Of a stretch of DNA of 64,000 nucleotides, positions 8,247 through 62,865 are shown piece after piece (position 1 is the stretch's first letter; each line of letters begins with the position of its first letter). The stretch covers positions 1,426,001-1,490,000 of the forward strand of contig JAHNUO010000011.1 in the NCBI GenBank assembly GCA_019787685.1. The letters run 5' to 3'. The notes under the pieces were generated by a model that had not been told where the DNA came from, made no database searches, and saw only the letters and a program-made list of their open reading frames with translations. Position numbers and translations under genes: made by a program. The DNA comes from Chiua virens (taxonomy: Eukaryota > Basidiomycota > Agaricomycetes > Boletales > Boletaceae).

Positions 8247-8483
8247 CCCTTCGAATTCCTTTTCTGTTTGCATTCCTCTTTTGAAATAAGATTTCCCTGC
8301 TTGTCCAAATTCATTGCTTTCCATGCTGGGTAGGTAGGATGACTCAGCTTGTCGAGCTTCCATCCATCCTGAGCACATTTGAAAAGCAGGTGTGCTTCCT
8401 TGACAAATGCATGATAGAACTTGTGAGAGCTTCCTTCTAGTTCACCATATACTTGAGGAGCACAATGGGCATAGGCAAATTCT
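8247..8483 (-). pseudogene. Middle fragment of the interrupted unknown gene
   Basis: Minus-strand coding segment reading FAYAHCAPQVYGELEG, then a helical region with HAFVKEAHLLFKCAQDGWK and a charged tail ending in KEECKQKRNSKG at the Tc1 boundary. Its upstream end abuts element A. If element A and one copy of its 5-bp duplication are removed, the frame joins without a shift to the segment ending in CSAWQE just beyond 15398. Function unknown. Confidence 0.6.
8479..8483. repeat. Target-site duplication of element A, left copy (ATTCT)
   Basis: ATTCT at 8479-8483 matches ATTCT at 15398-15402, directly flanking the two LTRs. A 5-bp duplication is usual for Ty3/Gypsy insertions. Confidence 0.95.
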
Positions 8484-8915
8484 TGAAACAACCTAGAACA
8501 ACCTAGACTGTTAAAGTTGTAGTGGTGTAGTGAAGAGGGGGTTCAGTCCAGTGAAGAGGCGAAAACTCCAAGAGAACTTTGTTAGAGCTCTCTGGCTGAA
8601 ATTCATGGGGTTTATATACTACATGGATGTCGGAGTTCTAATCTGAGTATGAACTACGTAGATAAGAATAGTGTATCCTATTGGATGATAAGGTGTGAAT
8701 AGATATGAGTCATAGATAAGAGCATAGCCTTGCACTGCCGATAATGAGTCAGTGATAAGGGAAATGAATAGATAAGAACATGTGTTTGATGGATGCTGTG
8801 TTATTGTGGTAGCCAATTGGGTATGATCCTTTGGACAGCCTTTGCATGAGGCGTTTATGTTTAGAATCGATCAAAGGTTGAAGTTGTGAAGTGAGGAAAA
8901 GTTGGTATCGTAACA
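8484..8915 (-). repeat. Element A 3' LTR
   Basis: 432 bp. In element orientation it begins TGTTACGATACC and ends TTGTTTCA. It is identical to 14966-15397 except for one base. The last codons of pol lie inside it. Confidence 0.96.
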
Positions 8916-9799
8916 CTATCCCCCTTCTGTTGATCGGACTCCGGATGATCTATTTCATAATTGAGACGATGGAGACTATCCTCATCTTCATGTAAAGTTT
9001 TATCGTCATAGGTTCGGAACATGGAGTTGAATTCGGTTTGTGTGACTTTTAACTTTCTTGGGGCGTCTGGATGTGCCTCGTGGAAATCAGATATGAGATT
9101 CGGCGCATTCTTCAGATTCTTTAGTGGTTCCCAAGTTCTTTCGTCATCATCATAACCCTTCCAGTGTATAAGATATTCTAAGCGTCGTCCTTTCATTCGG
9201 GAATCGACAATATAATCTGCTTCGAATTCTTCTTCTTGGTCATCTCCGATTACGACAGGTCGCGGCTTATATACCGGCTGTTCTGGTAGATGTTCTTTAT
9301 AAGGTTTAACCTGAGAAATGTTCACGACTGGATGTATTCTCATAGTGCGTGGGAGTCGAAGCTTTAAAGCATTCGGACCATGTATAGAGATTATGTCATA
9401 AGGGCCAATCCATTTATCCATAAATTTTGGATGTTGTTTTATTTTTAGATTCGCTGTAGAGAGCCAGACCTTATCGCCAATTGAATAGGGTGGGGGTTCT
9501 GATCTCGATTTATCTGCGATGTTTTTCATATTTTCCGCGGCTTTATCTATGTTTGATTTGGTTTGCTCTAGAACTTCGGAGAAATCCGTAATGTAATTCT
9601 GAGCAGCCGGGTTTTTCATGGATTGTGGCATAATTCCCATTCTAGGAACGTATGAACGTGTGATTTCGAATGGTGAGAATTTAGTGGCAGTGTGTTTCTT
9701 GCTGTTGTATGAGAATTGTGCGAGAGGAAGCCAATCGGCCCATGTGTTATTCTTCTCAGCACAGAACATGCGAAGATACTGTTGCACTTCTCGGTTCAT
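8861..9799 (-). CDS. Element A pol, integrase C-terminal part with chromodomain
   Basis: 312 residues in the same frame as the upstream pol frame, from which it is separated by a single TGA (9800-9802). It starts at the ATG directly after that stop. Residues about 1-60 continue the integrase core, a GPY-type motif (IGPY) is near residue 131, and a chromodomain occupies about 190-243 with aromatic cage-type residues (ADYIVDSR, YLIHWKGYDDDERTWEP). Chromodomains of this class bind methylated histone H3 and guide integration to heterochromatin. About 17 codons at the end overlap the 3' LTR. Without read-through or reinitiation this part would be cut off from the catalytic core. Confidence 0.93.
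   Translation of the reverse strand: MNREVQQYLRMFCAEKNNTWADWLPLAQFSYNSKKHTATKFSPFEITRSYVPRMGIMPQSMKNPAAQNYITDFSEVLEQTKSNIDKAAENMKNIADKSRSEPPPYSIGDKVWLSTANLKIKQHPKFMDKWIGPYDIISIHGPNALKLRLPRTMRIHPVVNISQVKPYKEHLPEQPVYKPRPVVIGDDQEEEFEADYIVDSRMKGRRLEYLIHWKGYDDDERTWEPLKNLKNAPNLISDFHEAHPDAPRKLKVTQTEFNSMFRTYDDKTLHEDEDSLHRLNYEIDHPESDQQKGDSVTIPTFPHFTTSTFDRF
8916..8928 (-). promoter_or_regulatory. Element A polypurine tract
   Basis: In element orientation AGAAGGGGGATAG stands immediately before the 3' LTR start (TGTTAC). This is the expected plus-strand DNA primer site for reverse transcription. Confidence 0.9.
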
Positions 9800-9802
9800 T
9801 CA
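9800..9802 (-). other. In-frame TGA inside element A integrase
   Basis: TGA directly follows the catalytic Glu codon of the DDE core and is directly followed by ATG in the same frame. Related elements usually have Arg here (QSER or QTER), so CGA to TGA at a CpG is the simplest origin. Confidence 0.85.
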
Positions 9803-12643
9803 TTCCGATTGTCCGTCTGTTTGTGGGTGATGTGCGGTGCTTAATTTGGGTGTTATTTTCAACCCTGAGCATATATCTTTCATAAGTTGGGAAGCGAATT
9901 GTGGTCCTCTATCCGAAATGATAGTTTTGGGGAGGCCATGATGTTTCCATATGTGTGAGAGATATAATTTAGCGAGATCCATAGATGTACACGTTTTGTG
10001 GCAGGGGATGAACTCGACTTCTTTAGAGAAGCGATCCACAACTGTGAGAATGGAATCATAGGAGTGTGAAAGTGGGAGATCTGTGATGAAATCTGCTGAG
10101 ATATCTTCCCATGGTAATGACGGTGTTTTTAAGGGTTGTAGGAGTCCTGCTGTTTTCTGATTAGAACCCTTGAATCGAGCGCATCTTTCACAGTGTGAGA
10201 CATAATTTTTGACTTCTTCGTTCATTCGAGGCCAAATGTAGGTTCGAGATAGAAGTTCTAAAGTTTTGTCGTAACCGGGGTGTCCTGCTTCCGGTGTGTC
10301 ATGAAACATAGTTATAGATTTGGTGCGTAGAGCCTCCGGAATGAAGATCTTATCCCCCTTTCTAAGGAAGGCGTCCTCGACTTTGTATCCGATAGAAAGT
10401 AAGTGTTTCATGGCATTAGGTGATAGTTTCATAGTTTCGTGTTGTACGTCAGATAAGAATTGATCACCATTGTATAGGAGAGTGACAGCTGATCTGATCT
10501 TAGATGGATCCATGAGAAGGATTCCTTTGTTATCGTCTTCGATGCCGATCATGTGATCTTCTCGTCTGCTTAGAGCGTCTGCTTTTCCCATAGTGACTCC
10601 AGCCTTGTGGTGCCAAGTGAAGTTAAAGCGTGAGAGATATTGCGCCCATCTCGCTTGTCTTCGGTTAAGATCTTGGCGTGTCATGAACCACGTAAGGTTC
10701 TGGTGGTCATTCCATATTTCAAATTCATGTTTTGCACCTTCAAGATAGTGGCGCCATAGTTCTAGAGAGCGGATAACCGAGAGCATTTCTTTATCGGCTA
10801 TAGGGTAATTCCGTTCTTCTGGTGTCATAGAGTGGCTATTGTAAGCGACAGGGTGCCAAAGTCCTTCTTTTTCTAAAGATAGAACTGCTCCTGTAGCGAA
10901 ATCCGATGAATCGCATTCTAAGCGATATTTGGAATTCTGATCCGGATAAGCTAGGATAGGGGCTGTCGTAAAAGCTTTCTTAAGCATAGTGAATGCTTCG
11001 TCACAGGCAAAGGTCCATTCAAATTTCTGATCCTTTTTAGTAAGGTCATGTAAGGGTCGTGCTATTTTTCCATAATCTTTAATGAATCTGCGGTAGAAGT
11101 TGGCAAGTCCGAGGAAACTTCTGACGTGTTTGACTGAGGTGGGGGTTGGCCATTCGGCTACTGCTTTGGTCTTTTCGTTATCCATTTTAATCCCATCAGT
11201 TCCCACGATCATTCCGAGGAAGTCCACTTCTTTTACGCGAAAGAAGCATTTTTCTGGTTTTACGTATAGATCGTTTTCTTCAAGGCGTTTGAGCACTTCG
11301 AGTACGATTTTGTCATGAGTTTCATAATCATCTGTGTTTGTAAATATCATGAGATCATCGATGTAGACGACAACGACGCCATTCATATCGGCAAAGATTT
11401 CGTTCATCATGGTTTGAAACGTTGCTGGTGAGTTACATAATCCGAAGTACATGACGATGGGTTCGAAAGACCCGCGGTGACAGACAAATGCTGCCTTCCA
11501 TTCGTCGCCTTCTTTGATGCGTACGTTATTGTATCCCCATCGGAGATCCATTTTTGTGAAGAGCTTAGTGTCTTTTAATTTATCCACAAGCTGCGAAATG
11601 AGCGGCAAGGGGTAGTTATTTTTTGTTGTGTGTTCGTTTAGATATCGGTAATCCTGGACCATACGCTTCTTTCCATCTTTCTTTGGGACAAAGAAAACCG
11701 GGGATGTCTGTTCGGATTTAGAGGGTCTGATGTAACCTTTCTTTAATTGGTCATCGATAAATGCGGAGACCTCCTCTTGTTCTGTGACAGAGAGGGGTAT
11801 TAAGCGACCCTTCTTTGGAACGAAAGACTCTTTTAGGTCAATGTGGTGATCCCATGGTTTACGTAATGGTATCCTTTCGGATTCCGTCTTTCCAAATACT
11901 TTAGCATATTTCATATATTCTCGTGGGACCATCTCTTCAAGAGTGCGTTCCTTAGGAGGAGGAGGTGGAGTTTCCATGTTTGCGGTAAAAATACGAGATT
12001 CCGCGATAGAGTTTGCATAGTTAAGTTCTTCTGCGATAATGGAATCCAGGAAATTGTCTTCTTCCTGAGAATGACATGTTTCAGGGCACCTTCTCATCAC
12101 GACCGTTCCTGTGGACCAGTTAATATGTGGGTTATGGTGCTTTAACCAAGTGTATCCGAGGATAAGATCGTTCTTTCCGAGGTTGGTAACTTCTGCAACC
12201 ATTATTTCCCTGTGTCCTTTGTAATCGACCAGGATCTGGGTGGCGTGAGTAATGGAACCCGCTTGATTTTTGGTTCCGTCGACATTAAAGACCTGTATTG
12301 GGTGTGGAAGTGCATATGTGGGGATTTTATGCTTAGCGACATAATCTTCGTGTATGAAGATCGCGTTAGCTCCACTATCAAGAAGCGCTCTAGCTCCGAC
12401 ATAACCAATTTGGTTTACTGGGGATACCAAAATTGGTAAAATAATTTCTTTTTCTACCGATGTAGATCTAATGAAAGACCCATCGGGTATTTGTTTTGGG
12501 ACAGAATTAAGCACGGAACTATCGTGTCCGCCGCGCTCCGCAGAGACGCTGTCAACGCTTTCGTTTTCTGTTGTTTTTGGTGATTTAGGTAGTTTATCCT
12601 CTTGCCAGGGAGGTATTTCCGAATAGGTAAAATCGAATTTCAA
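9800..12643 (-). CDS. pol: Element A pol: protease, reverse transcriptase, RNase H, integrase core
   Basis: 947 codons counted from a TTG at 12643; there is no ATG start, and the frame is open upstream to the frameshift site at 12718-12724, giving about 25 more residues. Aspartic protease: LLDSGA near residue 88. Reverse transcriptase: KMDL near 366 and YIDD at 427-430. RNase H: ECDSSDF near 576. Integrase: zinc module H-H-C-C at about 781-821, catalytic Asp near 851 (SADFITD), Asp near 911 (SDRGPQF) and Glu at 947 (DGQSE). A TGA follows that Glu directly. The polyprotein copies the RNA into DNA and inserts it. Confidence 0.96.
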   Translation of the reverse strand: MKFDFTYSEIPPWQEDKLPKSPKTTENESVDSVSAERGGHDSSVLNSVPKQIPDGSFIRSTSVEKEIILPILVSPVNQIGYVGARALLDSGANAIFIHEDYVAKHKIPTYALPHPIQVFNVDGTKNQAGSITHATQILVDYKGHREIMVAEVTNLGKNDLILGYTWLKHHNPHINWSTGTVVMRRCPETCHSQEEDNFLDSIIAEELNYANSIAESRIFTANMETPPPPPKERTLEEMVPREYMKYAKVFGKTESERIPLRKPWDHHIDLKESFVPKKGRLIPLSVTEQEEVSAFIDDQLKKGYIRPSKSEQTSPVFFVPKKDGKKRMVQDYRYLNEHTTKNNYPLPLISQLVDKLKDTKLFTKMDLRWGYNNVRIKEGDEWKAAFVCHRGSFEPIVMYFGLCNSPATFQTMMNEIFADMNGVVVVYIDDLMIFTNTDDYETHDKIVLEVLKRLEENDLYVKPEKCFFRVKEVDFLGMIVGTDGIKMDNEKTKAVAEWPTPTSVKHVRSFLGLANFYRRFIKDYGKIARPLHDLTKKDQKFEWTFACDEAFTMLKKAFTTAPILAYPDQNSKYRLECDSSDFATGAVLSLEKEGLWHPVAYNSHSMTPEERNYPIADKEMLSVIRSLELWRHYLEGAKHEFEIWNDHQNLTWFMTRQDLNRRQARWAQYLSRFNFTWHHKAGVTMGKADALSRREDHMIGIEDDNKGILLMDPSKIRSAVTLLYNGDQFLSDVQHETMKLSPNAMKHLLSIGYKVEDAFLRKGDKIFIPEALRTKSITMFHDTPEAGHPGYDKTLELLSRTYIWPRMNEEVKNYVSHCERCARFKGSNQKTAGLLQPLKTPSLPWEDISADFITDLPLSHSYDSILTVVDRFSKEVEFIPCHKTCTSMDLAKLYLSHIWKHHGLPKTIISDRGPQFASQLMKDICSGLKITPKLSTAHHPQTDGQSE

Positions 12644-12702
12644 AGAAATAGAGTTTTCATATGATTTAGGAAGGGTGGCGCGAACGTGAGATCCCAGTTT
12701 AC

Positions 12703-13890
12703 TCAGTTCGCCTTGCCTTTTCCCTTTCCGTTTTTGTTTTCGTACATATCGAAGTAGTATGCTTGTACTTCCTCAGGGGACATCCCTCGGATGGCGGCAA
12801 AGGGGTCTTTAGCCGGTACAGATGGGGAAGTGGTGGAAGTAGAAGATATTGTTTTCTTCTCTTCCTTGTTTGTCGAGCGGACTTTGCGTGAACATTGCGT
12901 CTTATGAGATCCGCCGTACCACTTGCATTCACTGCACTGGTTTTTAGGTTTGGTGCAATCGTTGGTTCTGTGACCTGCACCGCCGCAGTTGTAGCATTTG
13001 TTTGAGTTGTTGGTCTTCTTCTGACCAAATGCTCTAACTTCTTTTCCTGTGAACCAGCCATCTTCGTCTCTTTCGGCGTAAGTGGCTTGGCCAATGTCCA
13101 TAGCGTTGGGATCCTTATACTTTTTGTAGCGGTCTGGTCGCACATAATTAAGTGCTTCCATGGCATTTCCCGCTGTTCGGATCCAGGAAAGGTAAGTGAT
13201 GACCGCGTGGTCACGGTCAGGTTCGTATTCTGCGTGTTTAGGGTCTGTGTACATGGCGTGGAACGGATCCACCCTGTGCCCGTCGCGGAATATTTGGTAA
13301 ATGATGGAGTGGGCGGTGTTTGCCTCAAGGAGTCTTATCGCATGGGTGGGATCAATGTGTGCTTGTAGCCACAGGGCCTCCCATTGGACGATATAGTCTT
13401 CTACTCTCATCGTTCCTTGTTTTAGATTTTCTAATTGGGATCTAGCCCAATCGACCTTGTTGTTTTGTCGGAACATTCCTTCGATGTCCTGCACTAGTGT
13501 TGCCCATGTGAGAGCGGAGCCTTTGGCTAAGCGCGTTTCTGCGAATTGCGCCGCTTTCTTTCCTTTTAACCGTGAGAGTACGGCTTGTACGGCCCTGTAC
13601 GAGCCCTTGGGAATGGCGAGATTGTTTACTTCGAGCCATCCTTTCATTTTGGCCCACCATTCTTCGAATTTGGCCATTTCTCCGTCATATGACCCTGGGT
13701 CTGCGAAGATTTCGACTTTAGAGGAAGAGACCGCGGCCTGCGGGGGTATTACGGGTAAAGCATTGAGTTGCCCCTCTAGGGCGGCTATGAGTGTCGCTTG
13801 TTCAGCAACGAGGGTGAAGGCGGCCATCAGTCGATCTCCATTTGTGCGAGAGGTATCGTTTAGGACTCCGAGTGCAGTGTGGTAGTCCAT
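12703..13890 (-). CDS. gag: Element A Gag capsid/nucleocapsid protein
   Basis: 395 residues from an ATG at 13890 in a strong context (A at -3, G at +4). A Ty3-type capsid region spans about residues 55-250 (DPGSYDG, FEEWWAKMKGWL, AAQFAE, WATLVQDIEGMF). A CX2CX4HX4C zinc knuckle lies at 299-312 and a second CX2CX6HX3C cluster at 319-333. It would form the particle that packages element RNA. The stop at 12703-12705 lies 13 bases past a slippery heptamer that leads into pol in the -1 frame. Gag is the third frame after the 5' LTR, 17 bases after the membrane-protein frame. Confidence 0.95.
   Translation of the reverse strand: MDYHTALGVLNDTSRTNGDRLMAAFTLVAEQATLIAALEGQLNALPVIPPQAAVSSSKVEIFADPGSYDGEMAKFEEWWAKMKGWLEVNNLAIPKGSYRAVQAVLSRLKGKKAAQFAETRLAKGSALTWATLVQDIEGMFRQNNKVDWARSQLENLKQGTMRVEDYIVQWEALWLQAHIDPTHAIRLLEANTAHSIIYQIFRDGHRVDPFHAMYTDPKHAEYEPDRDHAVITYLSWIRTAGNAMEALNYVRPDRYKKYKDPNAMDIGQATYAERDEDGWFTGKEVRAFGQKKTNNSNKCYNCGGAGHRTNDCTKPKNQCSECKWYGGSHKTQCSRKVRSTNKEEKKTISSTSTTSPSVPAKDPFAAIRGMSPEEVQAYYFDMYENKNGKGKGKAN
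12718..12724 (-). promoter_or_regulatory. Probable -1 frameshift slippery site (G GGA AAA)
   Basis: In gag frame the heptamer reads G-GGA-AAA, fitting X-XXY-YYZ. Slipping back one base moves translation into the pol frame, which is open from here (AGG CAA GGC GAA CTG). The gag stop is 13 bases downstream. I did not establish a stimulatory RNA structure. Confidence 0.7.
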
Positions 13891-13907
13891 TTTTTTTATT
13901 TATTTAT

Positions 13908-14153
13908 TTACCAGTTGTCAGCTGCTGGTTCTGGTGCTCCCCAAGCGTTAGTGGTTGCTGTGCCGTATTCTTCGTAAGGTGAGAAAAGGCCGAATGTGAC
14001 TGCAAAAGGGTAGTCTCGTCGTTTGATGGAGACGTAAATTGGTCTTTGTGATTCTTGTACCTTGTTTGTGAGGTAAAAGGCGATGTAGCCGAAGAAGTAG
14101 GTGGTGAGAGTGCAAGAGATGATGAATGCGATTGCAACGAGTTCCCAAGACAT
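13908..14153 (-). CDS. Element A upstream frame 2: small membrane protein
   Basis: 81 residues from an ATG at 14153-14151, lying 14 bases after the upstream frame 1 stop and ending 17 bases before the gag ATG. Residues about 4-28 form one strong hydrophobic segment (ELVAIAFIISCTLTTYFFGY), a probable transmembrane helix or signal anchor. The rest is a soluble tail with basic residues (SIKRRDY) and an acidic C-terminus. The ATG context is poor (T at -3, T at +4). In the unspliced RNA it would be the first AUG after the predicted cap site. I do not recognise the protein; a membrane-targeting accessory role is a guess. Confidence 0.65.
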   Translation of the reverse strand: MSWELVAIAFIISCTLTTYFFGYIAFYLTNKVQESQRPIYVSIKRRDYPFAVTFGLFSPYEEYGTATTNAWGAPEPAADNW

Positions 14154-14167
14154 AAAAGAGTTTCTAT

Positions 14168-14731
14168 TTAGAGGTATCTGGAAGGGATCCTAAGAGTATT
14201 TCTAGGACGTAGGGAGGGGTACTCGAAGTTATCGTATTGTGAGTAGGGGCGAATTCTAGTAGGTACTTGATTCGCCTTGTATCGTCTCAGGATTCTCTTT
14301 CTTTCGAGATCTGTCCTGGCGTTTCTTCTTTCAATCTCTCTGGGTGGGAGCCAATCGTTTGGGTCTCCTAAACTTTCCTCTGATGGTTCTCTCAAAGGAG
14401 CTGGTGGGAAAGGTGATGGTTCTCTTTCGGGAATGGGAGCGGGAAAATATTCGCGCTTGACCTCAACTTCCTCGGTTGGATACCTAAGCTCCGGGCTGTC
14501 GGACCGGGTTGACTCTCGTTCACTAGAGTAGTCTGATAAGGGAGTAGTTTCCCCTAAGAAGTGGCCTAATAAGGCGTGGAAAATTTCGGTGTCGGTGCGG
14601 TCTTCGGGATCAAGGTCCTCGAGAGCGACGACTTCTGCGAGATATGCTGCGTCGAAGACGTAGGGTTCGTCGACGAGGTCAGGGTAAGCCTCTGATGCTG
14701 CTGCGATGGCAGAGAGGGGTAGGTTCGACAC
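14168..14731 (-). CDS. Element A upstream frame 1: acidic, Pro-rich protein with a splice-made start
   Basis: About 187 residues. No ATG lies in this frame, and none lies in any frame across the region. Removing the intron 14870-14731 joins A (14871) to TG (14730-14729) and makes an ATG in frame. The N-terminal half is acidic (ALEDLDPEDRTDTEIFHALL), the middle is Pro/Ser/Glu-rich (PAPIPEREPSPFPPAPLREP), and the C-terminal third is basic (RRNARTDLERKRILRRYKA). No domain recognised. Start context is weak (C at -3, T at +4). It could also be part of a longer spliced product. Confidence 0.6.
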   Translation of the reverse strand: MSNLPLSAIAAASEAYPDLVDEPYVFDAAYLAEVVALEDLDPEDRTDTEIFHALLGHFLGETTPLSDYSSERESTRSDSPELRYPTEEVEVKREYFPAPIPEREPSPFPPAPLREPSEESLGDPNDWLPPREIERRNARTDLERKRILRRYKANQVPTRIRPYSQYDNFEYPSLRPRNTLRIPSRYL

Positions 14732-14870
14732 TGATTGGGCAGGTCAGTTAAGATCTCCTTTCTGGTCAAGGGGTGCGCTATCTGCTTCTGCGATTGCTAG
14801 ACCTTGAGTCTTTTGCAATTCGGCTTATTGGTAGCAAATGTTCCAACTACTTTTCAAACTTGGGACTTAC
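14731..14870 (-). other. Predicted 140-base intron in the element A leader
   Basis: In element orientation the donor is GTAAGT (exon ends gggcccaa), a CTGAC branch-type motif lies about 15 bases before the end, and the acceptor is CAG. Splicing gives ccaATGTCG, creating the frame 1 start codon. The intron holds no ATG. Confidence 0.65.
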
Positions 14871-14952
14871 TTGGGCCCGGTTGTGTTATTTTGTAGTAGG
14901 GGCTACGACGAGGTTGTGACTTGACAGTAGTCGATCAACGGCGAAGATAAAC

Positions 14953-14963
14953 AACAAAGTTCT
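14953..14963 (-). promoter_or_regulatory. Element A primer-binding site, self-priming type
   Basis: In element orientation AGAACTTTGTT begins 2 bases after the 5' LTR. It is the exact complement of AACAAAGTTCT at 15055-15065 in the LTR, which lies about 30 bases downstream of the TATA box and so would be the RNA 5' end. This matches Tf1-type self-priming rather than a tRNA primer. Confidence 0.8.
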
Positions 14964-14965
14964 AA

Positions 14966-15397
14966 TGAAACAACCTAGAACAACCTAGACTGTTAAAGTT
15001 GTAGTGGTGTAGTGAAGAGGGGGTTCAGTCCAGTGAAGAGGCGAAAACTCCAAGAGAACTTTGTTAGAGCTCTCTGGCTGAAATTCATGGGGTTTATATA
15101 CTACATGGATGTCGGAGTTCTAATCTGAGTATGAACTACGTAGATAAGAATAGTGTATCCTATTGGATGATAAGGTGTGAATAGATATGAGTCATAGATA
15201 AGAGCATAGCCTTGCACTGCCGATAATGAGTCAGTGATAAGGGAAATGAATAGATAAGAACATGTGTTTGATGGATGCTGTGTTATTGTGGCAGCCAATT
15301 GGGTATGATCCTTTGGACAGCCTTTGCATGAGGCGTTTATGTTTAGAATCGATCAAAGGTTGAAGTTGTGAAGTGAGGAAAAGTTGGTATCGTAACA
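14966..15397 (-). repeat. Element A 5' LTR
   Basis: 432 bp, TGTTACGATACC to TTGTTTCA in element orientation. It contains a TATA box (15093-15100) and the predicted transcription start at about 15065. Confidence 0.96.
15093..15100 (-). promoter_or_regulatory. Element A LTR TATA box
   Basis: TATATAAA in element orientation, about 28-35 bases upstream of the AACAAAGTTCT self-primer sequence. The 3' LTR has the same box near 8611-8618. Confidence 0.7.
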
Positions 15398-15402
15398 ATT
15401 CT
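15398..15402. repeat. Target-site duplication of element A, right copy (ATTCT)
   Basis: Direct repeat of 8479-8483 next to the other LTR. Confidence 0.95.
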
Positions 15403-20056: not shown

Positions 20057-21462
20057 ATTCTATCATTCCCACTGCTTAGATAATGTGTTTTAGTGTCTTA
20101 AAAGGTCTAAACCAATAGTAGGATAAAAAAGAAAAACATATCCACATTTCTGACATGCTAGACAATTGTCCTTGAGAACCATATGATAAATTACTATTCA
20201 TATGTGTGTACAACATATCATCAGTGCAAGTGGCTTGGCAATGTACTAGTAATGTTATAACATATTCTCCAGATGCCCCTATTTTTGCTTCTGGAAGGTG
20301 TATGGGGTATCTCTGCTGCATGGAACAAGTATTGTAATTCCATTAGAATATATTATCTTGTATTTCTTCATTCCCCCATGTCTTCAGAGGTACTTTCATC
20401 CCTTCTAGAATGCTTTGGGTATATAAAATGACATATGACATATTATTGTTATTGTCACATATATCATCAGGGCACCTATATAGGATGCTAATATACCTTC
20501 TCATCCATTTGTAAACACACTCTCAGGTCTCTCTATGAAGAATTGAAGCTGTGGGGAGTCAAATGAACATTCTGCAAGTGTGGGAAATGTGTTGGAAACT
20601 TAGGAGACTTTGAAAAACATACTATTGTAGCTTCCGCAACACACATGTGGACATTCTAAGGCATAGAATGGGTTGGATACATTACACACAGTATGTCAAA
20701 ATATTTTCCTGCTGTCAATGTCATGTATGTCTCTGTTCCTGACTGAATACTGTATAAATCTCCTACCATACTTGACAAACAAAACATTTGGGCATAGATA
20801 TCACACTTGAAAATATTCTAGCCATCAATTCAGACATAGTATCCAACCCATTCTATGCCTTAGAATGTCCACATGTGTGTTGCAGAAGCTACAATAGTAT
20901 GTTTTTCAAAGTCTCCTAAGTTTCCAACACATTTCCCACACTTGCAGAATGTTCATTTGACTCCCCACAGCTTCAATTCTTCATAGAGAGACCTGAGAGT
21001 GTGTTTACAAATGGATGAGAAGGTATATTAGCATCCTATATAGGTGCCCTGATGATATATGTGACAATAACAATAATATGTCATATGTCATTTTATATAC
21101 CCAAAGCATTCTAGAAGGGATGAAAGTACCTCTGAAGACATGGGGGAATGAAGAAATACAAGATAATATATTCTAATGGAATTACAATACTTGTTCCATG
21201 CAGCAGAGATACCCCATACACCTTCCAGAAGCAAAAATAGGGGCATCTGGAGAATATGTTATAACATTACTAGTACATTGCCAAGCCACTTGCACTGATG
21301 ATATGTTGTACACACATATGAATAGTAATTTATCATATGGTTCTCAAGGACAATTGTCTAGCATGTCAGAAATGTGGATATGTTTTTCTTTTTTATCCTA
21401 CTATTGGTTTAGACCTTTTAAGACACTAAAACACATTATCTAAGCGGTGGGAATGATGGAAT
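20057..21462. repeat. 1.4-kb near-perfect palindrome (long inverted repeat)
   Basis: Left arm 20057-20680 and right arm 20839-21462, each 624 bp with no length differences, around a 158-bp loop. I found three mismatches between arms: two are CpG in one arm and TpG in the other (left 20635 versus right, and left 20073 versus right 21445), and one is a C/T difference near the outer tip. The arms are AT-rich and encode no protein I recognise; matching 81-residue frames at 20076-20321 and 21198-21443 are symmetric by-products. Outer flanks give no clear target duplication. It could be a foldback-type transposon or an inverted duplication. Confidence 0.93.
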
Positions 21463-21780: not shown

Positions 21781-22850
21781 AGGTGGCAGGTCCACACATG
21801 TGATTTGATTTCTACCTGCAAAGCATGTATATACTTGCACATCACATGGAGGTGATGGTGTGATCTCATATTTGTCCACACAGCATGCATGGGCCTGCCT
21901 GCTTAATCCAAGGTACATCCACCATATACTTGTGGGCCCACATGTGTGATCACATTGCCATCCACCAGGCACACATGGGCCTGCCTGTGTCAGCCTGGTT
22001 GCAGCTAGCCTGCCCATATGGGCCCACACATGTGGTTACCGAACATGCATGTGCCTGCATGACTGATAAGTTGCATCCACCACATGCCCCTGCAGGCCCA
22101 CACGTGAGATTCAATGTCCATCCACAATGCATGTATGGGCTTGCCTGTCTCATCCTGGTGGCATCCACTATGCTCATGCAGGCCCACACATGAGATTTGG
22201 TTCCCATCCGCAAAGCATGCATGTGGGCCTGCCTGTGTCATTGATGCTGTGGCTACCATCCCATTGTGGGCCCACACATGTGATTCAATTTCCCTGCACA
22301 AAGCATGCATGGGCCCACATGTATCATCCAGGTTGTATCCACCATGCCTGTGCAGGCCTGCACATATGATTTGAGTTCTACCTGCGAAGAATGCATGGGC
22401 CTGCCTATATCATCATGGTTGCATCCACCATGCCCATGCATGTAATTCAAGTTCCACCTGCACAGAGTGACATGGGCCCACCTGTGTCATCGAGGTCGCA
22501 TCCACCATACGTATGTGGGAACACATGTGAGATCCAGTTGCCATCCGCAAAGAGGCCCGTCTGTGTCATCAATGTTATGGCCACCATGCCAATCGGGCCC
22601 ATACATGTGATTTGATTTCCATCTGCAAAGCATGCATGGGCCCACCTGTCTTATCTAGATCACAACTACCATTCCTGCATGGGTCCACATGTGAGATTTG
22701 GCTTCTGCCCACAAGGCCCACATGGGCCCACCTCGGTCATCAAGGCTGCAGCTACCATACCCAGTCAGGCCCACATGTGTGATCTCATGTTCATCCTCAC
22801 AGCATGCATGGGCCTGCCTGTCTCATCCAGGTTGTATCCACCACTGGCAT
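21780..22850. repeat. 85-bp minisatellite array, about 12 diverged units
   Basis: Units centre on AGCATGCATGGGCCTGCCTGTGTCATC, then GGTTGCATCCACCATGCC, GCAGGCCCACACATGTGAT and CATCTGCAA. The core recurs near 21882, 21967, 22041, 22127, 22214, 22303, 22388, 22465, 22551, 22629, 22716 and 22801, giving spacings of about 74-89 bp. Units carry palindromic cores (CATGCATG, CACATGTG). Open frames across it on both strands follow the repeat and are not genes. Confidence 0.85.
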
Positions 22851-42408: not shown

Positions 42409-45400
42409 TTAGAAAGGAAGACACACCTCAGGTACAGTCCACTCAAACTTAACGGAGGGTGTGGCGACAGGGCAGTCTTCCTTGTCTTCCTTGTCTTCCT
42501 TGTCGCTGCCATCAAGGACATTGCTGAGTAGTACTTCCTCAGGGCCTTCATGATCATCATCATCTATGGGCTGCTGTGGATGGTTATCCTCAACGTCTTC
42601 TATGTGTGCTGCAAGAGGAAGATCATAGATGATGGGTGGGATCCAATGCAGCTGAGCACTGGACGGTGTGCCAGAACCTGACAACTGGTTTGCTACTCTC
42701 AAAGTGTCTTGGACACAGCTGGCGTAACGGGCTGCAGAGGCCAGTGGTGTGGGCCACTGAACTTGCAATTCAAGCATGGCATCGCACCGATGCTGTAATA
42801 GGAAATGATATGGCAAATCTAGACAGGCGTTCATATTACTACCAAGGAGCAAAACGATACTTACATTCTGGGAGCTGCAATGCCAATTCGAGGGCAGTGA
42901 GCTCATTTCTGAACCATCGGCACATGCTATCAGCTTCAATACCAAGCTGACGCTGCTCCTCACAACACCTGTCACGTTTCAGGAGCACTCTAATACCAGT
43001 GTGTACTTTGGCATCTTCAAGCCACCAAGGGATCTGGCTGTGAGATGGTGTGATCCACACATCTTCAAGTAGTGTCTGGTTGCTGCACAAGTCGGCAAGT
43101 TTAGTGGAAAGAGGGGTGGGTAATGGAATGGCGCAGGCCGGATCATATAGGCACTCAAGCTCTTCGCAATACTTGTTAAATTTTCGTATAGCGGACATGA
43201 GAGCTGGTTGACGCTGAGTGATAGCTTTGTGGGTCTGTTGGTGAAGCTTGGTACCTGGTGTTCATTTGGTCATATGAAAGACCTAAACGGATAAAACATA
43301 ATTTGCGGGTGCACCAAGGGATTTATCTTTTCCACCGACTGCCCAATCAAGCTTGTCCCACTCGAAAAAACTCCCAATTGCCCTCTTACATATGTTGATT
43401 TTGAGGTGATGGGCCAATAGAAGAACTCAGACAAAGTCCAAGTGGACCCCTTCTAGTTCTGGAAATCAGTCTTGAACGTTAAGTGAAGAATATAGACCCT
43501 CGATCTTCTGAAGGAGGCAGCTGTGTGTGTGCTCCATGCTATCCAGAGTCTCTAGTGCGCCATCTGCTCGATGGGCTTTTTCAATGGCAGTGCATGCCGT
43601 CTGCAATGCTCGTTCAGAGGCATCCAAGTCAGCTTGGAGCATCAGCACTACTATCTAATTCTCTCTTGAGTCTCACAGGTGCATCTAGGATAGTTCAGAT
43701 TAGTATATATTGGAATCAGAAAGCACCTACATGCTCATATGGACAACTGTGCCGCATGCTGGTCCGACCATTGTGATCGAAGATCATCAACAGAAATTCC
43801 ACAACTGTTGAGTACTTTTTGAGCAGCGTCTCCTTGCTCATGAACCCCTTTCTTCAGCTGACATCGGAGCCATAGTCCCAGATCCCACAACATTTCTGTG
43901 CCAACCGCACCAACTTGCCAATCAATCAGCCAGAGATGTTGCTGTTGCTGTAGTAATTGAGTAATCGAACATCTTGTTGTCATGATGACATATGGAGGAG
44001 GAACACTCAATGCCAATCAATTTGATGAGACGGGACCACAGCCATTCAGTGCCCTCGCTGTCCATCAGTCTGAGACCTTCAATGACTTGAGGGTTGTAGA
44101 CAAGCTGGCATGCCCATTCATGGCCATACGCATGCATTGCCATGGTGGCCAATCGAATGTGGGGTGCAATACCTTCACCAAGGATGTCATACTATTGTAC
44201 ATTGAGTGAGCTATGTCCATATGAAAAAGGATATTGTGCACACCTGAGAGATGGAATGCTCAATTACACAACCAATGTCATATAGCACAGCAACAGTGGC
44301 CTGTTGAGGAAGGAGCAAGAACAAGTGCTCCAATAAAGTGATACAGTATTTCTGTTGTTCTCCCAGGGTGTCGATATTCATGAAGAACAAGGGTATGTCA
44401 TGATGGCATATCAGTGCCATGAGTCCAGTGTTGTTGAAGCTCTCCATGGACATTTTTTGTTTCATCCCATCGGCGGCCTCGTATGATGATTTGCAGTGAT
44501 CCACTGCTTCGTCAGGAACACATGTCTGGTGTCGCTGTACTGGACACTTGCATGCTTTCTCAATGTGCTTGCCGACAGCGTCCACTTGCGTTTTGGGTAT
44601 AAAGTACTTTGGCTGGTAAAACATGGGTCCATCGCCCGCAGATTGACAGTGACGATGGTGAATGTCAGCACCTTCCACCGATGGCCGACCAAAAGAATTC
44701 CCTCCGAAACAGGCAGGACATTGCTGGCGAAGTATTGAATGACATGACATAAGGGGTGTCTGTATAGGTTCTGGACCTGATTGGCGTGGTTCTTGCACAA
44801 GATCAGCAGGATCAGATGGTGCAGGGAATTGATGCGAGGGGATGGCAGACACTTTTTCGTGACAGTGGGAGAGAATGGAATCAATACGTGTTTCAAGCTC
44901 AGCCATGAGCAAATCAAACCACAGAATCGCCTGTCCAAGACTGCATCAGAACGGCTCATGGATGGTGTTCCCCTGGGAAGACATCAGTAATGAGGTAACA
45001 CCCAACTCATCCTTACGTGTTTGTTTGTCATATGAAAAGCCCTGTGCAAGTAATGTGTGTTGAGGGCCAATGCCAATGCATTGACTGCATCACATGAGCG
45101 CTCGAACAGTGCACAGTAGAACCAAAGTAGCTCGACTGATATTGCCATGCATGGCTGGGAAGGAGCAGTTGGGAACAAGCCATGGTACAAGAGCACCTGG
45201 GGGAGCGAGCTGCAGTTGCAGGATTGGACTGTAATGGAGGTGAAGTCTATACATACCTTATCAGTAATCTAAGTGAGATGGGGAGAAGCGAGTGACATAC
45301 AGTCATAATACAATGCAAACAAGCCAGTTTCTTTCTTCTCACAGCTACCCCTGCAGTGTGAAAGGGTGAGAACGGGTGAAGGAGGTGGTTTTCCAAGCGT

Positions 45401-58993: not shown

Positions 58994-59423
58994 ACAGGTC
59001 AACTACAACTCCTGTAAAGTACATACTGAACAACAAATTCTCTGTTTTGAATGTTCAAACGTGCAAGGCCCCTGGAACCCCTTCTACTCTCGAAGCAAGG
59101 AAGGAAGGGACTACCCCAACAATTCTCAAATGACCAACGGGACTGTCGCTGGCTGATCACTGGATGGTTGTTGAAAGATCCCCCAGTAGTGAGTCAGCCT
59201 GGCCATGCCAAAAGTCGTCACAAACGAGTGCCTCTGTTCCTGGGAAGGTGGAACATGTGATCAAGTGACTCACAAAGGGATCCGGTAGACAGACATGGTC
59301 TAACACTATTGACCCTTGGTCCTGCGCCTGGATCAAGAAAGTAGTGGATGAGAAAGAGGAAGGGTGAGCTATCCACCACATCTTGTCCTTCATACATGAT
59401 CACGCCAACCCGAGGTAGACCCC

Positions 59424-60653
59424 ATGCTGGTCCAACAGATTCAGACAATGAACTCAGTTGAGGCACACTTTGCACTTCGTGAACTGCAGCAGAAACCTTG
59501 CTTTATCTGTTGGAGCCACCTCTCTAAAGAATCGCTAGACATTGATGTCTCGATCACCACTCCTGACATGAAGGTTGTCCCCACAAGGGCCTTGATCGAC
59601 TCAGGCTGCACAGGATTGTCCATGGATATTGCTTTTGTGCAAAAACATGGACTGGCCCGATACGAGCTACCTCGCCCAATCCCAGTTTACAACACTAATG
59701 GTATGCTTAACTCTGCTGGCAATATCACTGCCTTCATGACAGTTGAATTGTCGATTGGCCCTCACTCGGAGCAGATTGCACTCACTGTCACTAACTTAGG
59801 CACACACGACATTTTCTTGGGCTACAATTGGCTATGCACACACAACCCCTCTGTGGACTGGGTAACGAAGACAATCGCCTTTCATTGCAACGACGACCAT
59901 ACACTGGGTTTGATCAATGCCAAGGATGATGATGACAACCCACTGGAATGTGTTCAGAACCAGGAAGGGGGGAGGATCTTCCAGCTCAATGTTGACTCAT
60001 ACTGGGCTGCCTACGTCTCACGACATCTTCACAATGTCGTCACAGATATTGTCATCTCAGTCAACAAAGGTAAAGATGAGAAGACATTCGAAGATGCTGT
60101 CCCAGAAGCCTACCACAATTTCAAGGATATCTTTGCAAAAGAAACATTTGATGAACTACCCCCACACCGACCTTGGGACCATGCCATCGAACTCCTTCCA
60201 GGTGATCATGTCATCAATTGTAAAACTTACAACCTCACAGTGAATGAGCAGAAAGAACTAGACGTGTTCCTAGAGGAGAACCTCCAATCTGGATGGATCC
60301 GACCATCAAAATCGCCAATTGCCTCGCCATTCTTCTTTGTCAAGAAAAAGGATGGGAAATTGCGACCAGTCCAGGACTACCAAAAGCTCAATGCCATTAC
60401 TGTCAAGAATCACTATCCATTACCCCTCATATCTGAGCTCATCAACAAACTCAAGACGGCCAAGTACTTTACCAAACTCGATATTCACTGGGGCTACAAT
60501 AATGTCAGGATGAAGGAGGGAGATGAGTGGAAGGCAGCATTTCGCATGAATCGTGGCCTATTTGAGCCTCTTGTTATGTTCTTTGGACTGACTAACTCAC
60601 CTGCCACTTTTCAGACGATGATGAACCACCTGTTTCGCAACCTGATTAGCTGA
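59424..60653 (+). pseudogene. pol: Element B pol: protease and reverse transcriptase, 5' part
   Basis: 409 residues. Protease: RALIDSGCTGLSM near residue 53. A linker with DEKTFEDAVPEAYHNFKDIF precedes the reverse transcriptase (HRPWDHAIEL, GWIRPSKSPIASPFFFVKKKDGKLRPVQDY, FTKLDIHWGYNNVRMKEGDEWKAAF, MFFGLTNSPATFQTMMN). A TGA at 60651-60653 stops it six codons before the YMDD catalytic motif. Confidence 0.9.
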
Positions 60654-61661
60654 GGATGTGTCATCATCTATATGGATGACATCATGATTTTTACCAAAAC
60701 GCTGGAGGAGCATCAACAGACAGTCAAGGAAGTCCTACAAGTGTTACACGATAACAAACTGTCCCTGAAAAACACCAAATGTGACTTCGAGCAGGACAAG
60801 ACAGAATATCTTGGGTTGATTGTCTCGCACCAAACGGTCAAAATGGATCCTGCAAAGGTCAAAGGTGTTGTTGATTGGCCAGTCTCTACCACTAAACAGG
60901 ACCTCCATGCCTTTCTTGGCTTTCTAAACTTCTACCATCGCTTTATCCAGGACTTTGCAAAGATTGCTGGTCTCCTGAATGCCCTCACATCTGAGAAGCG
61001 TGACTTCCTCTGGACCGGTGACTGCCAATTGGCCTTTGACATGCTTAAAACGACAATCACTACCGCACCTGCCTTGGCAATGCCGAATGATGTAGGACAA
61101 TTCCATGTGGAGACTGATGGATCCAGCGTTGGCATCGGTGCTATCCTCACACAGGAGCAGGGAGGCTGGTGGCACCCCATCGCTTTCATTTCCAAATCAT
61201 TGTCAGACACTGAACCTAACTATCATGCTGCAGATTTGGAGCTGGGCGCTATAATCTTTGCATTGAAAGAGTGGCACCATTATCTGCTTGATGTGGCACA
61301 CCCTTTTGACATCCTAACAGATCACAAAAACCTCAAGTTCTGGCGACGTCCACAAGACCTGTCATGCCGCCAGGCTTGTTGGCACCAAATCCTACAGGAG
61401 TACCATTTTTCTATCTCTGATCAACCCAGTAGGACTAACCCTGTGGATCCTCTGTCCCAGAGGCCAGACTTCATGATGGGGGTGGCAGATGAGAACAAAC
61501 AGATCACTGTCCTACCTGACTCAATTTTCATTGCACAAACCTCATTAAATGCAGAGGCTATCCCCATGCAAAACCCAACCATTGACGAAGAAATTGATAA
61601 GGTGCAATACAAGGTGGAAAGATTCATGATGAAAGGATTAGAACGAGAGGGAACGGGATAG
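60654..61661 (+). pseudogene. pol: Element B pol: reverse transcriptase end and RNase H
   Basis: Same frame as the preceding part. Begins GCVIIYMDDIMIF (YMDD at 60669-60680), then thumb and connection regions (HAFLGFLNFYHRFIQDFAKIA) and RNase H (VETDGSSVGIGAILTQEQ, ADLELGAIIFALKEWHHYL, ILTDHKNLKFW). It ends at a TAG (61659-61661). Confidence 0.88.
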
Positions 61662-62400: not shown

Positions 62401-62865
62401 GACGATAAACGATACAGCCCATTTCAAGTGGAGGAGAAAGTCGGTAGGTCTGCATACCGACTCAAACTCACTCAGGGATGGAAGGCGGTTCACCCCGTCT
62501 TCAATGAATATTTGCTACATCCATACCACCAAGGCGACTTCCCATCTCAGAAAGTGACGATAAACAATACAGCCCATTTCAAGTGGAGGAGAAAGTCAGT
62601 AGGTCTGCATACCGACTCAAACTCACTCAGGGATGGAAGGCAGTTCACCCCGTCTTCAATGAATATTTGCTACATCCATACCACCAAGGCGACTTCCCAT
62701 CTCAGAAAGTGACGATAAACAATACAGCCCATTTCAAGTGGAGGAGAAAGTCAGTAGGTCTGCATACCGACTCAAACTCACTCAGGGATAAAAGGTAGTT
62801 CACCCCATCTTCAATGAATGTTTGCTACATCCATACCACCAAGATGACTTCCCATCTCAGAAAGT
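62401..62865 (+). repeat. 155-bp tandem triplication in element B pol
   Basis: Units start at 62401, 62556 and 62711 with GACGATAAACRATACAGCCC and are nearly identical. Each encodes the SH3-like tail of integrase (YSPFQVEEKVGRSAYRLKL, HPVFNEYLLHPYH). 155 is not a multiple of three, so the extra units shift frame. Confidence 0.95.

Follow-up and report, generated by a model that had tools for sequence, protein, structure and literature searches.

The stretch of DNA analysed here (the window) comprises 64,000 nt of a contig of the basidiomycete Chiua virens [GenBank: JAHNUO010000011.1]. Its minus strand carries an LTR retrotransposon, designated element A, in which two open reading frames and a predicted intron precede gag. 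The features of the element, given in the order in which they would be transcribed, are the following.

15398–15402 and 8479–8483: target duplication AGAAT, on both flanks
14966–15397, minus strand: 5′ LTR of 432 nt with TG...CA ends, differing from the 3′ LTR by a single mismatch (at 8810)
15094–15100, minus strand: TATATAA, a TATA-like box some 30 nt ahead of the predicted cap site
15055–15065, minus strand: self-primer AACAAAGTTCT at the predicted start of the transcript, with an exact complement 80–140 nt downstream in 72/74 copies
14953–14963, minus strand: primer binding site (PBS) AGAACTTTGTT, 2 nt past the 5′ LTR, complementary to 15065–15055 and paired with it in the predicted fold
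14871–15065, minus strand: predicted exon 1 (R-U5, PBS and leader), with no ATG in any of 74 copies
14731–14870, minus strand: predicted intron of 140 nt, donor GTAAGT, acceptor CAG, branch-like CTTAACTGAC at 14752–14743
14168–14730, minus strand: frame 1, 187 aa if splicing unites A (14871) with TG (14730), rich in Pro, Glu and Arg (dN/dS 0.095, 62 open copies)
13908–14153, minus strand: frame 2, 81 aa, type I, with an N-terminal hydrophobic segment (dN/dS 0.11, 39 open copies)
12703–13890, minus strand: gag, 395 aa, start context AAAATGG, with Retrotrans_gag domain and CCHC knuckle
9800–12772, minus strand: pol part 1 (protease, RT, RNase H and integrase), in a frame other than that of gag
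8861–9799, minus strand: pol part 2 (SH3_Tf2-1 and chromodomain), divided from part 1 by one in-frame stop
8484–8915, minus strand: 3′ LTR of 432 nt, compared with the 5′ LTR

Element A is a young but interrupted copy, since its LTRs are one mismatch apart, the AGAAT duplication is present on both sides and pol contains an in-frame stop. The pol product matched in Pfam the chromodomain (PF00385, 4.2e-16) and the Tf2-1-like SH3 domain (PF24626, 1.5e-13), a combination found in elements of the Tf1/sushi type. Among the 120 pol matches listed in the homology search, two Lyophyllum proteins (43 and 46% identity) are named tf2-like. Gag and pol lie in different frames, and the element thus lacks the single gag-pol frame of Tf1, which is a trait of Tf1 itself and not of chromoviruses as a whole.

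Other repeats and mobile sequences are present in the window. A second LTR-type pol (protease, RT and RNase H) lies at 59400–61658 on the plus strand, is split by an in-frame stop and does not appear in the lists of frame 1 and frame 2 matches; a KDZ (Kyakuja-Dileera-Zisupton) transposase domain is encoded at 44214–44945 on the minus strand. A perfect inverted repeat of 624 nt (20057–20680 and 20839–21462, spacer 158 nt) could give rise to an RNA with a long hairpin, or else be the trace of a recent rearrangement. The window further contains satellite-like repeats (83/169 nt) at 21848–22849 and three 155-nt tandem units at 62401–62865.

The reading of the sequence alone that preceded this work had placed the transcription start near 15065. 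This position fits both the complementarity of R and PBS and the TATA-like box, and because of these two features the predicted cap site may be regarded as well supported. Elements with self-priming of the Tf1 type have a PBS that can pair with the 5′ end of their mRNA, as described in the portion of the source consulted (PMC4600332). The same trait, relative to the predicted 5′ end, is seen in element A and its other copies, where the complement extends over 11 nt; in one of the copies with an exact match (L066) a changed base in the self-primer is accompanied by the matching change in the downstream complement.

Conservation was assessed within one genome (48.3 Mb in 136 contigs), which was searched for copies. 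The frame 1 protein gave at least 151 matches, some of them fragments of one copy, and the two types of frame 2 protein, which can match the same region, at least 98 (type I) and at least 58 (type II). Eighty-six leader loci were fetched, and 84 were retained after L057 (5′ end unparsed) and L059 (partial) had been left out; they form a subset, many weaker frame 1 matches lying outside it. ATGs were counted in 74 copies, after removal of those lacking a parsed cap site, acceptor, frame 2 start or gag start (L017, L062, L064, L071, L084, L091, L092, L095, L099 and L102). All pooled counts given below overstate independence, as the copies share kinship, and L013 and L014, with identical values, may be one duplicated copy.

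It had been claimed that the element strand is free of ATG in any frame from 15065 to the frame 2 start at 14153, and again from there to the gag start at 13890. This was confirmed: between 15065 and 13888 ATG occurs at 14153 and 13890 only. The recount also reproduced the eight antisense ATGs (CAT) between 15065 and 14153, and gave 14 over the whole stretch up to gag. The ATG-free run of 935 nt (15088 to 14153) is the longest in the window on either strand, the runner-up being 478 nt, and only 1 of 5028 segments of the same length as the stretch, taken from both strands, contained one ATG or none. From base composition 14.6 ATGs are expected in these 1.18 kb, and none of 5000 shuffles fell as low as one; if the stretch is modelled as a first-order Markov chain, 6.6 are predicted (P = 0.007). 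The depletion is therefore extreme against base-composition shuffles and moderate against the Markov model, part of it being due to dinucleotide make-up, and the random expectation of 14–18 originally quoted for 910 nt proved too high by the composition of the stretch.

Conservation over the copies is a stronger argument against chance than these statistics of a single stretch. Between the cap site and gag the 74 copies contain on average 1.7 extra ATGs in sense and 13.9 in antisense orientation; 26 copies have none and 45 have at most one. The 48 copies with at least one extra ATG count against the desert reading. The sense and antisense means are 0 and 1.9 for exon 1, 0.14 and 1.5 for the intron, 1.0 and 6.8 for frame 1, and 0.57 and 3.7 for frame 2 (0.45 extra and 3.6 in intact copies). 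Just upstream of the cap site the mean is 5.6 in the same copies, counted over the adjoining 197 nt or less, a part of the U3 of the 432-nt LTR; in element A itself the LTR upstream of the cap site contains six ATGs, the last at 15088, 23 nt before that site. The expectation that related copies would have few upstream ATGs was borne out most clearly in the 56 of 74 with both frames intact (mean 1.2 extra), the remaining 18 with broken frames being richer (3.2; P = 0.0017). An internal Met was found in 1 of 62 frame 1 proteins and 3 of 66 frame 2 proteins, and the gag product of the window has 11 Met including the start.

Codon usage has been compared with that of gag, and this comparison likewise speaks against chance. 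Where an NAY codon precedes G, a final T would create ATG; the share of such codons with T is 7% in the upstream frames (mean of 19 columns) versus 60% over codons 1–100 of gag (13 columns; P = 1.6e-6 over columns), and before other bases it is 27% versus 36% (P = 0.27). Within the upstream frames alone the difference between the two contexts (7% versus 27%) is modest (P = 0.025); taken by set, frame 1 alone gave P = 0.051 and frame 2 type II P = 0.055, and frame 2 type I showed no difference in this test (P = 0.84). In type I, third-position A was found at 3 of 160 positions before TG versus 164 of 728 before T and another base. When codons were permuted, ATGs were below expectation in all three frames (0.79 observed versus 1.98 expected, 0.59 versus 2.23, and 0.30 versus 0.78). 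The CAT control was 6.8 versus 6.0 for frame 1 and was also low for frame 2 (4.3 versus 7.2 and 2.2 versus 3.5), so the frame 2 deficit is not specific to ATG; for individual copies the permutation test was weak (P < 0.05 in 3/62, 11/39 and 0/27 copies). One could suppose that base or codon composition produces the desert as a side effect, as the Markov expectation, the low CAT control of frame 2 and the similar rarity of GTG (2 in the stretch) would permit. We consider this the least probable of the alternatives, given that the codon contrast with gag is limited to positions that would make ATG, that ATGs are more numerous in copies with broken frames and in the part of the LTR preceding the cap site, and that antisense ATGs are not rare.

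Frame 1 has no ATG of its own. It had been proposed that its AUG would arise by the splicing of a 140-base consensus intron, and the predicted end of exon 1 at 14871 and start of exon 2 at 14730 agree with that proposal. The signals and the A/TG join proved to be conserved in related copies: the strict pattern A/GTAAGT...YAG/TG, followed by TC or AC, is present in 80 of 84, in which splicing would create an ATG. Two of the exceptions, L017 (acceptor AAG/TG) and L092 (TAG/TGAA), would by eye still yield it; L062 has a different upstream part, and in L102 the donor was not recognised. The predicted intron is 130–149 nt long over the copies. The two main leader types, L1 and L2, have introns of 48% identity, yet the donor is kept in both; the motif CTTWACTGA near the 3′ end of the intron occurs in 39/39 L1 ends and, for L2, in all those listed (24 of 32 ends). 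Three diverged L3 copies have other exon ends, still terminating in A. Within 60 nt of the 3′ end of the intron, a branch motif CTRAY was found in only 55 of 80 copies. In 77 of 80 an in-frame stop lies within the intron ahead of frame 1, which therefore would be unreachable from exon 1 without splicing. That A/TG is retained although its flanks have diverged so far can hardly be accounted for unless splicing occurs.

The weakest point of the splice-made start is that none of the 84 parsed copies is intronless, with exon 1 joined to exon 2, which suggests either that reverse transcription bypasses the spliced RNA or that the intron is seldom or never removed. A search of the genome with an 18-letter L1 junction pattern (up to three mismatches) gave 57 matches versus 27 for the control; recognisable element copies keep the 3′ end of the intron before TG, and L039, the one inspected among the matches outside such copies, is not an element copy. 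The uniform presence of the intron would also suit a start of frame 1 at GUG (14731–14729), made without any splicing from the G of the acceptor-like AG and the following TG, a triplet that exists wherever AG/TG does. GUG is a weak start in eukaryotes, here it has T at -3, and the A-preceded GTAAGT donor, kept across introns that are 48% identical, would be left unexplained; we hold such a start to be very unlikely.

Both upstream frames, judged by the selection acting on them, are genes. It had been anticipated that they would be conserved in related copies, and they were found to be under strong purifying selection, with dN/dS of about 0.1 as in gag. The values, calculated as ratios of means over open copies, range over 0.06–0.13 for the upstream frames (0.06 for frame 2 type II, beside those listed above for frame 1 and type I); gag types A and B gave 0.09 and 0.17 over their first 100 codons. 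Copies outside the length limits (12/74 for frame 1 and 8/74 for frame 2) as well as saturated pairs were left out, 1802 of 1891 pairs being used for frame 1. Of 82 copies in which frame 1 was read, 47 have a product of 187 or 188 aa; the structure model of frame 1 from the single sequence is of low confidence (pLDDT 58). Neither frame of the window had a Pfam match at E <= 1.

The frame 2 product is a predicted small membrane protein that exists in two divergent versions, both with a hydrophobic N-terminal segment (Kyte-Doolittle 19-residue maximum 1.5–2.5 and 2.5–3.1). A comparison of profiles suggests a common origin of types I and II (E of about 4e-5 in a single comparison; probability 45% in global and 69% in local mode). 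As to its role, membrane anchoring or an envelope-like function would be a guess. The types of leader, frame 2 and gag occur in the 74 copies in six combinations: L1-I-A (21), L1-II-A (18), L2-I-B (17), L2-II-B (10), L2-I-C (5) and L3-I-B (3). These combinations suggest that frame 2 has been swapped between element families through recombination.

The contexts of the three starts had been described as weak, weak and strong, and this applies to the window, where frame 1 has C at -3, frame 2 has T at both -3 and +4, and gag has A at -3 and G at +4. Among the 74 copies frame 2 has T at -3 without exception, in types I and II despite their unlike sequences, and gag has A in 69 and G in 5. For frame 1 the base at -3 is C in 64 copies and A or G in 10, the latter against its reading as a weak start; T stands at +4 of gag in 35 of the 74 copies (types B and C), which likewise counts against the proposed series. 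The stop of one frame and the start of the next are separated in the window by 14 nt (frame 1 to frame 2) and 17 nt (frame 2 to gag).

The best explanation of these data, and as a single claim a likely one, is that element A is one member of a large Ty3/gypsy family in this fungus, whose retrotransposons prime themselves and carry a chromodomain, and that these Tf1-like chromoviruses have an RTBV-like leaky-scanning leader, which would allow two extra proteins to be made from one capped RNA. The polycistronic leader proposed in the sequence-only reading is thus supported by the copies, by selection, by the splice signals and by the self-primer. Leaky scanning is favoured because the leader and upstream frames are poor in AUG, frame 2 has T and gag A or G at -3, and the gaps between frames are short. 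On the unspliced RNA ribosomes would scan about 910 nt free of AUG; some would start at the weak frame 2 AUG and produce the small membrane protein, and others would cross the AUG-poor frame 2 to the better AUG of gag. Removal of the intron would place the mostly weak frame 1 AUG, joined from A and TG, in front, converting a message with two starts (frame 2 and gag) into one with three. The depletion of AUG within the intron suggests that the unspliced RNA is translated as well.

Two other routes to the downstream frames deserve consideration. Ribosomes ending frame 1 or frame 2 might resume at the AUG 14–17 nt downstream, a termination-reinitiation scheme with which the short gaps agree, as does the distance of 269–283 nt from the end of frame 1 to gag in 37 of the 40 copies with a value. 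Reinitiation would have no need of AUG-free frames 1 and 2 or of the invariant weak context of frame 2, and it is usually poor behind an ORF of 187 codons; we regard it as unlikely. Alternatively, gag could be translated from another, shorter RNA, produced by a second intron or an internal promoter, the desert then serving frame 2 only or having some other cause. Precedents among plant LTR elements, according to the parts of the literature consulted, are the distinct RNA pools of BARE (PMC3735527) and the splicing for a downstream ORF in Bagy2 (PMC7264820). A separate gag RNA would not require frame 2 to be as poor in AUG as it is in intact copies, and appears quite unlikely. A shunt over a structured leader with a short upstream ORF has been considered and rejected, as exon 1 lacks ATG in all 74 copies and the predicted fold is unremarkable (z -1.0).

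Leaky scanning through such a leader has its closest parallel in the plant pararetrovirus rice tungro bacilliform virus (RTBV), for which, in the portion of the source consulted, scanning through ORFs I and II has been demonstrated over 900 nt (PMC5902531). As in RTBV and the badnaviruses (Caulimoviridae), element A has two long upstream frames without internal AUGs (none in the window) and a scanning distance of about 900 nt; the upstream starts of RTBV are likewise weak or moderate, its main polyprotein comes third and a spliced RNA exists (PMC5902531). The order weak, weak, better is found in the starts of element A too. In contrast to element A, RTBV starts ORF I at AUU and its leader is shunted past an upstream ORF and a secondary structure, and its splicing serves ORF IV (PMC5902531). 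Element A is an LTR retrotransposon whose first AUG would be made by splicing behind an ATG-free exon 1; the predicted fold is ordinary, and neither an AUU start nor a shunt has been found in it.

With Tf1/Tf2 and Tj1 of fission yeasts the element shares a PBS complementary to the (here predicted) 5′ end of its own RNA, as reported for them in the part of the source available (PMC4600332); it also has a Tf2-1-like SH3 domain and a chromodomain. Its two extra genes and predicted intron before gag set it apart from Tf1 and Tj1, as far as is known. A conserved ORF preceding gag is also known from the grass elements Retrosat2, RIRE3 and RIRE8 (ORF0 of Retrosat2); the likeness drawn here is one of position, and a single ORF0 is described there, as far as the excerpt of that report goes, versus two frames in element A (PMC3485330). 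The same excerpt makes no mention of AUG depletion or leaky scanning. Bicistronic loci of green algae resemble it in the weak Kozak context of ORF 1, the reduced number of AUGs before ORF 2 and leaky scanning supported by mutations; they are cellular and have two cistrons, and a splice-made start is not described in the section of the source consulted (PMC11892635).

Descriptions of LTR retrotransposons are usually confined to gag and pol, and we know of no frames before gag in Tf1 or Tj1. A review mentions additional ORFs upstream or downstream of gag-pol (PMC7264820), and a survey of LTR elements in fungi names gag and pol (PMC3248453), each as far as the parts consulted extend. The earlier statement that no description of such an arrangement was known for fungal LTR elements holds for the literature searched, among the titles and openings of abstracts listed and with few subscription journals, in which no account of leaky scanning or of a splice-made AUG before gag was found for any LTR retrotransposon. 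What would be new is the union of an RTBV-like expression plan and a splice-made start in a Tf1-like chromovirus.

Protein searches gave no candidate for frame 2, and none of the 183 candidates for frame 1 reached E <= 0.001. For pol 1494 of 7996 proteins scored had E <= 1e-30. Among the 120 matches listed, the best was 65% identical over 91%, the highest-ranked came from a bacterial assembly and from JGI and NCBI sources, and the named fungal relatives, with 43–54% identity, were from Lyophyllum, Pisolithus, Agaricus, Phellinidium and Pleurotus, all mushroom-forming fungi. Scans of genome and viral contig collections with the single pol sequence gave no relative; the scan with a pol alignment gave three contigs from bacterial assemblies among the genome contigs and none among the viral ones. 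None of these three yielded a three-frame leader: two start inside a gag-like frame and lack any leader, and at the start of the third, a distant relative (35%), no such leader could be recognised. Two contigs of Neobacillus and Shewanella assemblies (L103 and L104), with title coverage below 1 and a pol 61% identical to that of element A, are probably fungal contamination.

The relation between the two predicted RNAs permits a further and more tentative proposal, which we rate as somewhat short of probable. Retention of the intron may act as a switch, in which the unspliced RNA would serve as the genome for packaging and also as a message for two proteins (membrane protein and Gag-Pol), and the spliced RNA as a message for three proteins, barred from reverse transcription; frame 2, exchanged in its versions by recombination, would then be an accessory or envelope-like module. 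If this holds, the bar on reverse transcription of spliced RNA would explain why none of the 84 copies has lost the intron.

In this work we have described two further retrotransposon proteins that are about as conserved as gag, one of them a predicted small membrane protein. Expression of the upstream frames would reuse a device of plant pararetroviruses, and splicing would create the first AUG. Element A would provide a natural setting in a fungus for testing how ribosomes scan about 900 nt, and possibly a splicing switch between message and genome.
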